A stretch of 64,000 nucleotides of DNA from a virus. Location of the stretch: positions 17,926 through 81,925 of the IMG/VR virus record IMGVR_UViG_3300015241_000015, one strand, 5' to 3'. Each line of letters starts with the position of its first letter. Positions within the stretch are counted from its first letter, which is position 1. The notes under the pieces are model-generated. The model was not told the DNA's origin, did not search any database, and was given only the letters and a program-made list of their open reading frames with translations. Of the stretch, positions 4,854 to 9,047 are shown piece after piece. Both the position numbers and the translations under genes were made by a program.

Positions 4854-5072
4854 TTAGTGGGTTGAATCTATATCTTGGGCGTTAACGTGTTTCGGTGAAC
4901 TCCTTTCTTCTTTGGTAGCGGCGTGCCGTGCAGCGTATTCGTGCTCATGGCACCAACAAGAACACCAAGCCTTCGGTTCAACGACCGGAGCCCCCGGTGT
5001 GCTCACATTGGAACAATGCCAGGAACAGCGGCATACGGTTCCTTGGCGAAGCGGGCGGCCGTCAGGGGTCAT
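4854..5072 (-). CDS. Cys-rich small hypothetical protein
   Basis: A 72-aa protein with clustered cysteines and histidines (CRCSWHC, CSCWCHEHE), probably metal binding. Its start overlaps the stop of the Dam methylase by four bases, so the two are probably co-translated. Confidence 0.6.
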   Translation of the reverse strand: MTPDGRPLRQGTVCRCSWHCSNVSTPGAPVVEPKAWCSCWCHEHEYAARHAATKEERSSPKHVNAQDIDSTH

Positions 5073-5470
5073 GCGCTTTCCTTCTTGAAAATCACAACCA
5101 TACTGGGGAACGGGGCTGGCTGAATCGATCCATTGAATTTCAATCGGCCGCGAATGAAGCGAACCTCACGGGCTTGCGGTAGCACCAAATCGTGAAACCA
5201 AGGTGATGACGTTCTTGCCGGTATCAGATACACCGCCAGATCGGCTTCCCGGCCACGCTCCAGCCATTCCCTAATCCCTGGGCCGTAAGGTGGATTGCAA
5301 AACACCCGCCGGCCCGTCCAGGAAACAAACAGCGGCGCCAACCCGTCCTCGATTCCACCCAGCGGGCAAGGATCGAAATCGAAGTGGAATTCCTCGTTGA
5401 GCGACCTATAAAGCCACTCAGGCGTCCTCCACTCCGCCGTGGTCGAACTGAAAATTACCCGGGATGGCAT
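5069..5470 (-). CDS. dam: phage DNA N6-adenine methyltransferase (Dam family)
   Basis: Methylates adenine in phage DNA, commonly to evade restriction. Seen here: TPEWLYRSLNEEFHFDFDPC near the N-terminus and the catalytic NPPYG at residues 59-63, the hallmark of the short phage Dam family (PF05869). The length (133 aa) is slightly below the usual 150-180, so some of the target-recognition region may be reduced. The ATG was preferred over a TTG four codons upstream. Confidence 0.85.
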   Translation of the reverse strand: MPSRVIFSSTTAEWRTPEWLYRSLNEEFHFDFDPCPLGGIEDGLAPLFVSWTGRRVFCNPPYGPGIREWLERGREADLAVYLIPARTSSPWFHDLVLPQAREVRFIRGRLKFNGSIQPAPFPSMVVIFKKESA

Positions 5471-5478
5471 GGCTGATT

Positions 5479-6057
5479 TCAAGTCGTTTTAACTTCTACG
5501 AATCGCGTGACTCGAAAGGTTCCAAACGGGCCACGTTTCTCAGGGCGAAAATCTCCAATGCCCGTACTCACTCCGCCCTCGGCCAGAAGCTGATGGGCTG
5601 TCTCAATCGGAAGCTGATTGTCGTCAATTTGCAGATTGAACTTCGCTGACCACTGGTCGAACCGCGGGCGGTGTCTCATCACGCGCCCCTTTGTCGCCGG
5701 GATCGTGACAGGCCGCGAATCAACCTCGAATCTCTTGGCTGGGCCACCATCTCCGTTCAGAATCGTGACGGTATCGCTGCATATTCGAACGGCCGCCGGC
5801 ACGACAAATTTCAGCGTTTTCCGGGATGAGCGCATCTTGTGATTCGCCCCAGCCGCTCCCATCACGTTCGGAATCGCAAACGCCGAAAAGTAGAAGTGGC
5901 CTGCATCATCAATGTATGCAACCCGCCTCGCGGCTTCGAGTGGATCTTCATGTTGCGCCAATTGCGTTCTCGTGGGCTTTGCCAATTGTGCGCGTTCATC
6001 GAACCGTTGAATAAGCAAAGGCGTCAGTCCAGCAATTTCACATTCGATCAGTTTCAT
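5479..6057 (-). CDS. RAMP-like conserved phage protein
   Basis: A 192-aa protein starting MKLIECEIAGLTPLLIQRF and ending with GIGDFRPEKRGPFGTF. The opening TPLL strand and the Gly-rich G(I)GDFRPEKxGxFG loop recall the ferredoxin-like fold with glycine-rich loop of RAMP (Cas5/Cas7-like) proteins, although no crRNA system of that type is nearby. I know the family only as a recurrent phage hypothetical often near dam or replication genes. It ends 8 bp before dam. Confidence 0.75.
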   Translation of the reverse strand: MKLIECEIAGLTPLLIQRFDERAQLAKPTRTQLAQHEDPLEAARRVAYIDDAGHFYFSAFAIPNVMGAAGANHKMRSSRKTLKFVVPAAVRICSDTVTILNGDGGPAKRFEVDSRPVTIPATKGRVMRHRPRFDQWSAKFNLQIDDNQLPIETAHQLLAEGGVSTGIGDFRPEKRGPFGTFRVTRFVEVKTT

Positions 6058-6145: not shown

Positions 6146-6260
6146 GGCGCTGCGAGGCGCGGCACTGCATGGCAAGGCAGGGCACGGCCTGGCACGGCGT
6201 GGCCTGGCAAGGTCGGGCATGGCTTGGCTCTGCACGGCAAGGCAAGGACAGGCGGGGTGT
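6146..6260. repeat. GGCNN pentanucleotide repeat tract
   Basis: On the plus strand 22-23 consecutive 5-bp units fit GGCNN (for example GGCAC, GGCAA, GGCAT, GGCCT), with the GGC kept in phase and the last two bases varying. It lies between the integrase and the RAMP-like gene, where no convincing gene exists. Only about four units deviate at the first or third base. The tract ends against a 7-bp inverted repeat at 6251-6273 (GGCGGGG / CCCCGCC). Confidence 0.85.
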
Positions 6261-6294
6261 GTTAAGCCCCGCCTATTTATTTGCGTGCAATGGC

Positions 6295-7728
6295 TCACTT
6301 CTCCTCCTTGCTTGGAGGGGTCTTGTCGGATGATTTTTGGTGATGCGGATTTGATGCGGATTCTGCTTTATTTTGGTCTATTTTGCTGATGGATGTCGTT
6401 GAAGCTATTGATTCTATTGAGGTTGATTCCAACTCTGGATCAGCATATCGGGGTTCGAATCCCTGGGGGGCAGCCAAATCTTTTGAACAACTTACAGACT
6501 TTTCATTCGTTTTTGATTCGCCCTCGTCTCCTCCATAGTGCGGTTTTGATGCGGATTGACTCTTCTTCTTTCCCTCTTCTTTGGTCTCTTTTGGGGCCTC
6601 GTCGTCCAGGACTTGCACCCACTCCGCATTTGCGCCGGGGATCAGGTGGCCGTAAATGTCGATCGTGACCGAAATACTCTTATGCCCCATCTGCTTTTGC
6701 ACATAGGCCGGAGAGACTCCCGCCTGGATCAGCAGGCTGCCGTAAGTGTGGCGAAGGTCATGAAACCGGAAGCGACGAATACCGGCTTGCTCTAGCGCTG
6801 GATCGAGGTATCGCTTGGCGATATTGTCCGGGAATATCGGTCCACCGGTCTCCGATGGGAACACCAGATCGTCGGAAATACTGGTCTTGCCATCCATGAA
6901 GGCAGGCAGAAGGCGTTCATCTCTCGCCACCACCAGCGCCGTCCGTAATTGTTCTGTCATATCAACGCGACGGGACTCGCCGCTCTTGGGAGAACCAAAG
7001 GTTTTGGATTTCACGTCATAAGTTCTCTCGACCAGGATGAAGCACTCCGGCCCAACACATTCCCCGAACTGAATATGCCCCCACTGCAAGGCGATCAATT
7101 CACCCTTGCGAAGCCCAGCCCGTAAAGCGGCCAGGAAAAAAACGGAGTATCCTGGGCATATCTCGCCAACTGCCGTCAGGAAACGTTGCGCCTCGCTGCG
7201 TGTCATCGAATCCCCTTTAGCTTTGCCCTTTTGCTTCTTGTTGAATTTTCCGATCCGTGAAGCGGGATTGGAAGCAATAATGCCATCTTCGACGGCGGCA
7301 TTCAGACAGGCGCGCAATGCCCCGTATGTTAGGCGTACCGTGTTGCGCGCAAGCTTGCCATTCGATAAATCGCCAACAAAAGACTTCACTTCCTCGCGGG
7401 TTATTTTGGTTAAAGCCTGTGCGCCAAACCTGGGGACCACGCGAAGCCTGAGTTGCTCCTCGTAACTGCCCCAGCTTCTGTGTTTGATTTCCCCTTTGCG
7501 CCCACGAAGCCAGGCGGCGGAATACTGCGAAAATGTTTGCTCTTTGCACGCTTCTTCTTTCGTTTCGAGAAAGCCTAACTGGCCCAAAGCGGCCATACCT
7601 TCGGCTCGCTTCCGAATCTGCTCTGCCAGTTTCGCGTCACCAGTCTTCAGCGATTTCGAGGAGCGTTTTCCTTTGTGGTTAACAAATAACCACCACACGC
7701 CTTTCACTTTTTTCAGTTTGACTCCCAC
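6295..7728 (-). CDS. int: tyrosine integrase (site-specific recombinase)
   Basis: Catalyses integration and excision at attP/attB. It has an N-terminal arm-binding region (about 1-60), a SAM-like core-binding domain (about 65-160) and a catalytic domain with R207 (GLRKGEL), H323-x-x-R326, H349 and the nucleophile Y359 (DIYGH). Beyond Y359 there is an unusual tail of about 115 Ser/Lys-rich residues. Residues about 419-432 (APQGFEPRYADPE) are the antisense translation of a tRNA 3' half, so attP lies inside the coding region. It starts 4 bp after the excisionase-like gene. Confidence 0.95.
   Translation of the reverse strand: MGVKLKKVKGVWWLFVNHKGKRSSKSLKTGDAKLAEQIRKRAEGMAALGQLGFLETKEEACKEQTFSQYSAAWLRGRKGEIKHRSWGSYEEQLRLRVVPRFGAQALTKITREEVKSFVGDLSNGKLARNTVRLTYGALRACLNAAVEDGIIASNPASRIGKFNKKQKGKAKGDSMTRSEAQRFLTAVGEICPGYSVFFLAALRAGLRKGELIALQWGHIQFGECVGPECFILVERTYDVKSKTFGSPKSGESRRVDMTEQLRTALVVARDERLLPAFMDGKTSISDDLVFPSETGGPIFPDNIAKRYLDPALEQAGIRRFRFHDLRHTYGSLLIQAGVSPAYVQKQMGHKSISVTIDIYGHLIPGANAEWVQVLDDEAPKETKEEGKKKSQSASKPHYGGDEGESKTNEKSVSCSKDLAAPQGFEPRYADPELESTSIESIASTTSISKIDQNKAESASNPHHQKSSDKTPPSKEEK
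6432..6475 (+). other. attP: attP core: tRNA 3' half (probably tRNA-Gln, CTG)
   Basis: On the plus strand, inside int, the sequence reads as an anticodon loop CTCTGGA (anticodon CTG after T33), a variable region, a T arm CGGGG-TTCGAAT-CCCTG, an acceptor 3' strand GGGGGCA, G73 and CCA. The discriminator G and the anticodon fit tRNA-Gln. There is no 5' half, so this is not a functional tRNA gene but the phage copy that restores the tRNA on integration. Confidence 0.85.
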
Positions 7729-7731
7729 GAT

Positions 7732-7977
7732 TTATCCTCCCGAAAACATCTTTTTCAACATCGCATCAACTTGCTCTGTTTCAATAGCCACGCTATGAGC
7801 GCGCATCCAGCGATCAAACTCTGACCGTTCAACTCGAAACTTTTTGCCCACACGCGAAGCGGGGAGCGGATCGGAGATCCTGTGTATCCAGCCGAGCAAG
7901 GTCCGCTCCGAGACGCTCGCATAGGTACACAGCGATTTCAGATCCAACCACTCGGACTTAACTTCTTGCTTTCTCAT
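7732..7977 (-). CDS. xis: excisionase-family HTH protein
   Basis: An 81-aa MerR/excisionase-type helix-turn-helix protein: SLCTYASVSERTLLGWI, then RVGKKFRVERSEFDRWM, the usual HTH_17 winged layout. Positioned directly before int on the same strand, it probably controls recombination direction by bending attP DNA. The start is the ATG just after the DUF5131 stop. Confidence 0.8.
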   Translation of the reverse strand: MRKQEVKSEWLDLKSLCTYASVSERTLLGWIHRISDPLPASRVGKKFRVERSEFDRWMRAHSVAIETEQVDAMLKKMFSGG

Positions 7978-7981
7978 AATT

Positions 7982-8878
7982 CTACGCAGCTTTCTGTATG
8001 CCCCCCGGCAATTCGTCCCAGACCCGGCCATCCAAAAGACGACAGGTTTTTGGCTTTCCGACACGGACCCCAGCCAAGCCGTCCCGCCAGTTGTGCGCGG
8101 CGATGACCGACATGCGGGCGTAGCCCTCGATCTGGACGTAGGCGCCGCCGGGATAGCGTGGATCCATGACCAGAGGGGCCGTCAGGTACTCGCCCCACGT
8201 TTTGAAATAAAACGGGACGCCGGCGGCCGAGCATTGATCGCGGATCGAGCGAACCCAGTCGGGGTGTAGCGGCCTGGCGTAAGGGCCAATTTCACCGCCC
8301 ACCATGACCAAATCAAGCTTATAGGGCTGTTCCTTGGCTTCGAGGGCCCAGGAGATGTCCACAGGGCCAAGCATTGGTTCTACGGCCACCCAGCGCGTGG
8401 CGGCAGGGGTTTCTAGGAGCGGGATGATGCGCCATTTTTCCGCTTCCGATTCGACCGAGACGCCCAGCCAGAGATTGGGCAGTGGTTGGGGGTAAAGCCG
8501 TTCCATGATGCTTTTCATTCTGGCGGCCCGCTTGGTCAATACCTGGAACGTGTGACGGGGGTTGTCGTCGACCACTCGCAGGATCTGTTCTATCCAGCCG
8601 TCGTGGGCTTCCTCGTGGAAGAGGTCGCTCATGGTGTTGATCATGATGCGGCGGGGCTTGATCAGATGGTAGGGGCGGTCAAGGGTTTTTCGGGAAAAGC
8701 GGAGTTCCCCGGTCCAGGCAGGCTGGGATTCAAGCACCTCGACCAAGCCGGAGTAGGCTCTAAGTTCGCCATTCACGCGTAGCGCACTACGCGCCGACGA
8801 GCAGTTGCGGCAGCCCTCGCTTACACGCGAACATCCCCGCACGCAATTCCAGGCGACATCGAATATTTCATTCACCAT
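7982..8878 (-). CDS. DUF5131 (phage Gp37/Gp68) family protein
   Basis: A 298-aa protein with an N-terminal Cys cluster (WNCVRGCSRVSEGCRNC), then a TIM-barrel-like body with INTMSDLFHE, FQVLTKR, and LGVSVE. This matches the DUF5131/Gp37-Gp68 family, related to radical SAM-type barrels. The biochemical role in phages is unknown. The start MVNEIFD overlaps the preceding small gene by 11 bp. Confidence 0.85.
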   Translation of the reverse strand: MVNEIFDVAWNCVRGCSRVSEGCRNCSSARSALRVNGELRAYSGLVEVLESQPAWTGELRFSRKTLDRPYHLIKPRRIMINTMSDLFHEEAHDGWIEQILRVVDDNPRHTFQVLTKRAARMKSIMERLYPQPLPNLWLGVSVESEAEKWRIIPLLETPAATRWVAVEPMLGPVDISWALEAKEQPYKLDLVMVGGEIGPYARPLHPDWVRSIRDQCSAAGVPFYFKTWGEYLTAPLVMDPRYPGGAYVQIEGYARMSVIAAHNWRDGLAGVRVGKPKTCRLLDGRVWDELPGGIQKAA

Positions 8879-9047
8879 CTTCGTTCTCTTTCTCGTACTC
8901 GTCGAAACTCTTATTGATGCAGGGTCCGCACACGTGCCAGTCGGCAATAAGATCGTGGTCGGTACAGGGCGCGCCGCAATGGATGCAGACGCCATCCTTG
9001 GGGCAATCGCACTCGCCGTCCTTCCAGTGATCTTGGGGGTAGGTCAT
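8868..9047 (-). CDS. small zinc-binding protein
   Basis: A 59-aa Cys-rich protein (CDCPKDGVCIHCGAPC, then CGPC). The ATG overlaps the stop of the upstream gene and its own stop lies inside the DUF5131 start. Probably a zinc ribbon or an accessory to DUF5131; not further recognised. Confidence 0.7.
   Translation of the reverse strand: MTYPQDHWKDGECDCPKDGVCIHCGAPCTDHDLIADWHVCGPCINKSFDEYEKENEDGE

Follow-up and report, generated by a model that had tools for sequence, protein, structure and literature searches.

In the Myxococcus phage Mx8, attP lies inside the integrase gene (int), and integration reportedly replaces the 3' end of int, which alters the specificity of the integrase without inactivating it (PMC6070905). 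The Islander authors name the integrases of Mx8 and SSV as extending across attP (PMC4383910). An attP within int is therefore already known from Mx8, which is the closest precedent for the locus described here, with archaeal suicidal integrases and integration-dependent immunity as looser analogues.

We analysed a window of 64,000 nucleotides, representing bases 17,926-81,925 of an 81,925-bp virus record. It contains an integrase gene and, next to it, a putative excisionase gene:

6295..7728, minus strand: int, encoding a tyrosine recombinase of 477 aa (PF00589, E = 3e-21; SAM-like N-terminal domains; phrog_1 integrase, E = 4.5e-70)
7732..8064, minus strand: putative excisionase (HTH_17; PF12728, E = 7.6e-8), directly upstream of int

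The PF00589 domain of Int carries the R...HxxR...H...Y arrangement of phage tyrosine recombinases. Its catalytic residues R207, H323, R326, H349 and Y359 are invariant in an alignment of 17 sequences (A2), and the Y359 named in an earlier sequence-only reading agrees with this. The protein encoded at 7732-8064 also matched phrog_66 (excisionase and transcriptional regulator, E = 2.7e-7). Its gene is adjoined by a DUF5131 gene (window 7982-8995; PF07505, E = 1.4e-72) whose DNA is unusually conserved, with about 70-76% identity over about 130 bp to genes of mycobacteriophages, Gordonia phages and cyanophages. Just past the int 3' end, a stretch of about 110 bp (6146-6257) consists of degenerate tandem repeats of GGCACGGCAT type with a 10-bp (5-bp) period. 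It adjoins a 9-bp stem-loop (6250-6274) and may be a set of iterons or a protein-binding array.

The sequence-only reading had placed an attP core, derived from the 3' half of a tRNA-Gln gene, at 6432-6475 inside int. Both the location and the origin of the core stood, and its end moved by one base, as the tRNA match is one base longer:

6432..6476, plus strand: attP core of 45 nt, the 3' part of tRNA-Gln(CTG), antisense to int codons 418-433
6433..6439, plus strand: anticodon loop CTCTGGA, the likely crossover region; identity to the host tRNA ends one base to its left

On the plus strand, the core consists of the anticodon loop, 3' anticodon stem, variable loop, T arm, acceptor strand, G73 and CCA, in that order. 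Int codons 419-432 (AAPQGFEPRYADPE), rightly described before as antisense to the tRNA 3' end, fall wholly within it. A scan with the exact 44-mer 6433-6476 against one genome per species yielded 116 genomic stretches, with Acidobacteriota in 80/80 among the matches listed, and ARAGORN called a complete tRNA-Gln(ctg) gene in 100 of the 116. Because of these exact matches, the Acidobacteriota titles listed and the tRNA calls, the match is not due to chance: the core corresponds exactly to the 3' portion of a tRNA gene of the host. Identity reaches one base further left of the 44-mer (A in 114/116 stretches) and then ends. This boundary suggests that crossover likely takes place in the anticodon loop, where the anticodon-loop class of tRNA-targeting integrases crosses over (Islander classes, PMC4383910). 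Joining the 5' 30 nt of the host tRNA to the phage core gave a valid 74-nt tRNA-Gln(ctg) (ARAGORN). Displaced tRNA-Gln 3' halves also occur in Candidatus Sulfotelmatobacter MAGs (L007, L024, L041 and L072); the first three have a common left flank (GAAACCC..ATTTTCGC), and these halves would be termini of a different element family that uses this tRNA.

Arm-type repeats lie on both sides of the core, all of them within the int ORF:

6341..6362, plus strand: left arm-type sites, two copies of TGATGCGGATT, within int codons 456-463
6538..6557, plus strand: right arm-type sites, GTGCGGTTTTGATGCGGATT, within int codons 391-397

The direct repeats TGCGGATTTGATGCGGATT (6344-6362) and TGCGGTTTTGATGCGGATT (6539-6557) are identical at 18/19 positions, a match reached by 0/200 shuffles of the flanks. 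The arm sites contain all three plus-strand copies of the motif GATGCGGATT in the 64-kb window. In the window phage and in three related elements, which target tRNA-Gln or tRNA-Lys, the first base of TGCGGATT is at exactly -78 relative to the anticodon loop. On the opposite side, TGC motifs appear again in the three related elements at about +52, +63 and +73. The flanking repeats are very likely Int arm sites, and together with the core they would make up a complete classical attP.

The window has phage genes to the left of attP as well as to the right:

5069..5482, minus strand: Dam-type DNA methyltransferase (PF05869, E = 4.6e-13; phrog_111), a phage gene left of attP
5479..6057, minus strand: gene matching phrog_4652, which marks the left flank of attP as phage DNA
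715-2442: primase/helicase, left of the core

To the right of int are genes for the excisionase-like protein, RecT/Bet, terminase (TerL), portal and major head protein (capsid). The core is present in a single copy across the 81,925-bp record, and ARAGORN called no tRNA within the window alone. With a single core, phage genes in both flanks and no tRNA anywhere in the record, the sequence is the free attP form, as had been proposed. The phage is likely a temperate tailed phage of soil with a Terriglobales-type Acidobacteriota host. Left of the window, the record contains a 3,619-aa ORF (L002:1877-12736) with matches to SLT transglycosylase and SNF2/DEAD-like helicase, which resembles a giant polyvalent phage protein. 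The core could be read instead as an attR, a tRNA end displaced by an element that has integrated or decayed, which some genomic copies lacking the tRNA 5' half indeed are (L056, the second copy in L074, and L150). Given the matching arms to the left and right, the phage genes around them and the occurrence of just one core in 82 kb, this is extremely improbable here.

We searched for related integrases in 396 genomes of the phylum Acidobacteriota, 397 of the same order, and viral contigs. A single-protein query identified no relative among the viral contigs, while a query with the family alignment identified L143-L145 and the very distant L146; the core patterns had no match in viral contigs. 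In Acidobacteriota, the ORFs of related integrases with 41-51% identity continue in antisense into a tRNA gene, which is that of tRNA-Gln, -Met or -Lys; for more distant ones it is tRNA-Lys and -Gly. Such an antisense overlap was found in 10/10 intact relatives beside a recognised tRNA:

tRNA-Gln target: L120
tRNA-Met target: L132, L133, L135, L140 and L143
tRNA-Lys target: L130, L123 and L126
tRNA-Gly target: L125

These comparisons indicate that the integrase clade changes its tRNA target while keeping arms and overlap; for the persistence of the overlap across the clade despite such changes we found no description in the literature searched. Integrase-like ORFs of other subfamilies beside the same tRNA-Gln behave differently: eight end 18-78 nt short of it and two overlap it (L022 and L048). 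The other ends of the Met-targeting elements were looked for and none was identified; the second copy in G549 is another tRNA-Met.

Replacement of the Int C-terminal tail on integration, also part of the sequence-only reading, is visible in three related elements and predicted for the window phage. No lysogen of the window phage itself was found among the genomes scanned. Both ends were found for the related elements L074, L051/L056 and L130/L150. In L074, a whole tRNA-Gln (1255-1328) is at one end and a core with one mismatch lies 5.6 kb (5,600 bp) away; its int is frameshifted, so it shows the junction and not a working protein. This 5.6-kb element carries further integrase fragments on the other strand and may be a remnant or a small satellite. 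L051/L056 are likely two ends within one MAG on separate contigs. The tRNA-Lys element has its ends, L130 and L150, in a single genome, again on separate contigs. When the ends were joined in silico, the tail of the free form differed from that of the integrated form in all three elements. The free tails were PFTGSENKENKAVPSANSGKPLQNPHHLRTKKGGEV (L074), PGKGSENKALQQFTSAKSSNLRQNPQPPRNRKNGE (L051/L056) and HNTAPATQQDSAISSADSGKVLQNPQPRRNKNDLKRGD (L130/L150), and the integrated tails after the core were QLSYH (L074 and L051/L056) and QLLCQLSYAPTVGIEPAGQFVIVTFPRTPGCP (L130/L150). In L130 and L131, both at tRNA-Lys, the Int ORF traverses the whole tRNA antisense into host DNA, where L131 has a run of Ns; this integrated state is the one predicted for the window phage after integration.

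The part of the window Int that would be exchanged is the following:

6298..6432, minus strand: free-form Int tail, codons 433-477, LESTSIESIASTTSISKIDQNKAESASNPHHQKSSDKTPPSKEEK, with predicted loss from int upon integration

This tail of 45 aa begins with LEST and ends with KEEK. In its place, the predicted lysogen tail begins with SAVLPLNEGA in 94/96 of the host tRNAs checked and continues with host-specific residues, for a predicted total replacement of 7-196 aa (median 32). AlphaFold2 assigned a pLDDT below 50 to nearly all Int residues 381-477, so the tail is predicted to be disordered.

We consider it probable that the window contains a complete attP in the int 3' end of a temperate phage of Acidobacteriota, and that the tail swap is tolerated rather than selected. 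Int, probably with the HTH excisionase, would act on the tRNA-Gln(CTG) core, to the left and right of which lie TGCGGATT arm sites with a phasing of 10-11 bp; core and arms alike are translated as part of Int. Exchange of strands within the anticodon loop would restore the whole host tRNA-Gln and cut the int frame after codon 432, and the lysogen Int would end with SAVLPLNEGA followed by residues that the host encodes, in varying number. The overlap of attP and int would then be a compact integration module, able to switch tRNA target while keeping its arms. That the swap is tolerated is the likeliest reading, since the affected residues are in a predicted disordered extension past the catalytic domain. 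Still, neutrality of the window tail is not to be assumed, because the tail change in Mx8 reportedly modifies integrase specificity (PMC6070905).

This precedent points to another reading, in which the swap is a functional switch: free and lysogen Int would differ in activity, specificity or stability, and integration itself would retune the recombinase. The layout is the same as that of Mx8 Int, whose altered 3' end is reported to change specificity (PMC6070905), and in every intact relative beside a recognised tRNA the int frame extends into that tRNA. The tail itself, however, bears little sign of such a role. The frame through the core varies across the family, from AAPQGFEPRYADPE in the window to WLPPRDSNPDMLIQS in the Gln relatives and CPPGIRTPIC in the L077 fragment. 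In a codon-position test for tail selection, the left-arm differences were spread evenly over codon positions, with no codon periodicity. The conserved NPH/NPQ of the free tails was considered as a trace of protein selection and rejected, as it is the arm motif AATCCGCA translated. No conserved lysogen tail was seen among the forms compared, and by sequence neither form of Int ends in a recognisable degron. An open stretch of 100 codons from 378 on has a chance probability of about 4%, which is suggestive at most. With the tail also predicted to be disordered, a functional switch seems unlikely, and the earlier claim that the activity or stability of Int is tied to integration state through the swap found no support here.

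A related and more speculative proposal, which we regard as distinctly doubtful, is that the Acidobacteriota clade kept attP in int through its target changes (Gln, Met, Lys and Gly) because the host tail or the antisense tRNA overlap tunes the direction of recombination, with the lysogen tails of the window phage and of the Lys-targeting L130 depending on the individual host flank.

Coupling at the RNA level is improbable. The lysogen int would lack its own 3' end and face a strongly expressed tRNA-Gln head-on, which would damp int (or the tRNA) only when integrated. Although int and tRNA are convergent in all integrated relatives, the same geometry applies to any integrase convergent with a tRNA, including the neighbours that end before it, and the effect on expression is hypothetical.

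We also weighed whether the overlap is an artefact of an indel in the linker (codons ~377-390, window 6558-6605), with the real Int ending at a TAA just before the core. Indeed, the window is frameshifted relative to its relatives in this purine-rich linker, and their frame, followed in the window, reaches a TAA about five codons before the core. By eye, the shift coincides with a linker lengthened by additional purine-rich sequence and not with the loss of a single base, and this extra length disfavours a one-base assembly error. The present frame is open over the 100 codons, whereas there are 4 stops in one of the alternative frames and 3 in the other. An artefact is therefore quite improbable, and attP would abut int even then.

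With this locus, the Mx8 arrangement reaches into a large and poorly studied phylum, and the window phage gains a likely host group and target gene. A clade that retargets tRNAs with arms and overlap kept makes the function of a state-dependent Int tail testable. The arrangement also accounts for tRNA-antisense 'tails' in predicted integrases, such as GFEPRYADPE, WLPPRDSNPDM and RTNDLRIMRPSL.

Among known systems, ordinary tRNA-targeting tyrosine integrases (lambda/P4-like islands) share the tRNA 3' fragment, the anticodon-loop-centred site, the arms and the excisionase. Their int usually ends before the core, as do the eight ORFs beside the same tRNA-Gln, whereas the window int does not. The mycobacteriophage repressor switch, suggested earlier as the precedent, fits less well than Mx8, where attP is in int. 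In the integration-dependent immunity of myco- and Gordonia phages, integration into a tRNA gene likewise gives a phage protein a different C-terminus (PMC4929511), but attP is in the repressor gene, whose free-form product has a -DAA tag for degradation; in the window phage, attP is in int and the free tail ends with KEEK. The archaeal SSV-type suicidal integrases also have attP within the integrase gene as a compact module (PMC8371274). Integration inactivates their gene by separating its N-terminal from its C-terminal part, while in the window Int the break point is 73 residues past Y359, in the predicted disordered tail, and only this tail would change. Mx8 (NC_003085) is closest: its Int is homologous to the window Int (27% identity over 412 aa, E = 4e-18), and in both, an antisense tRNA T-arm is read as Int codons, at codon 414 of 533 in Mx8 and with the core at codons 418-433 of 477 in the window phage. 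Replacement of the tail on integration is reported for Mx8, as is a regulatory effect of its tail (PMC6070905); for the window phage, the replacement is predicted and the effect of the tail hypothetical. The two differ in target, which is the tRNA-Gln(CTG) of Acidobacteriota for the window phage and its own attB for Mx8, and in the length of the free tail, which is 45 aa in the window Int and about 110 aa in Mx8 Int.
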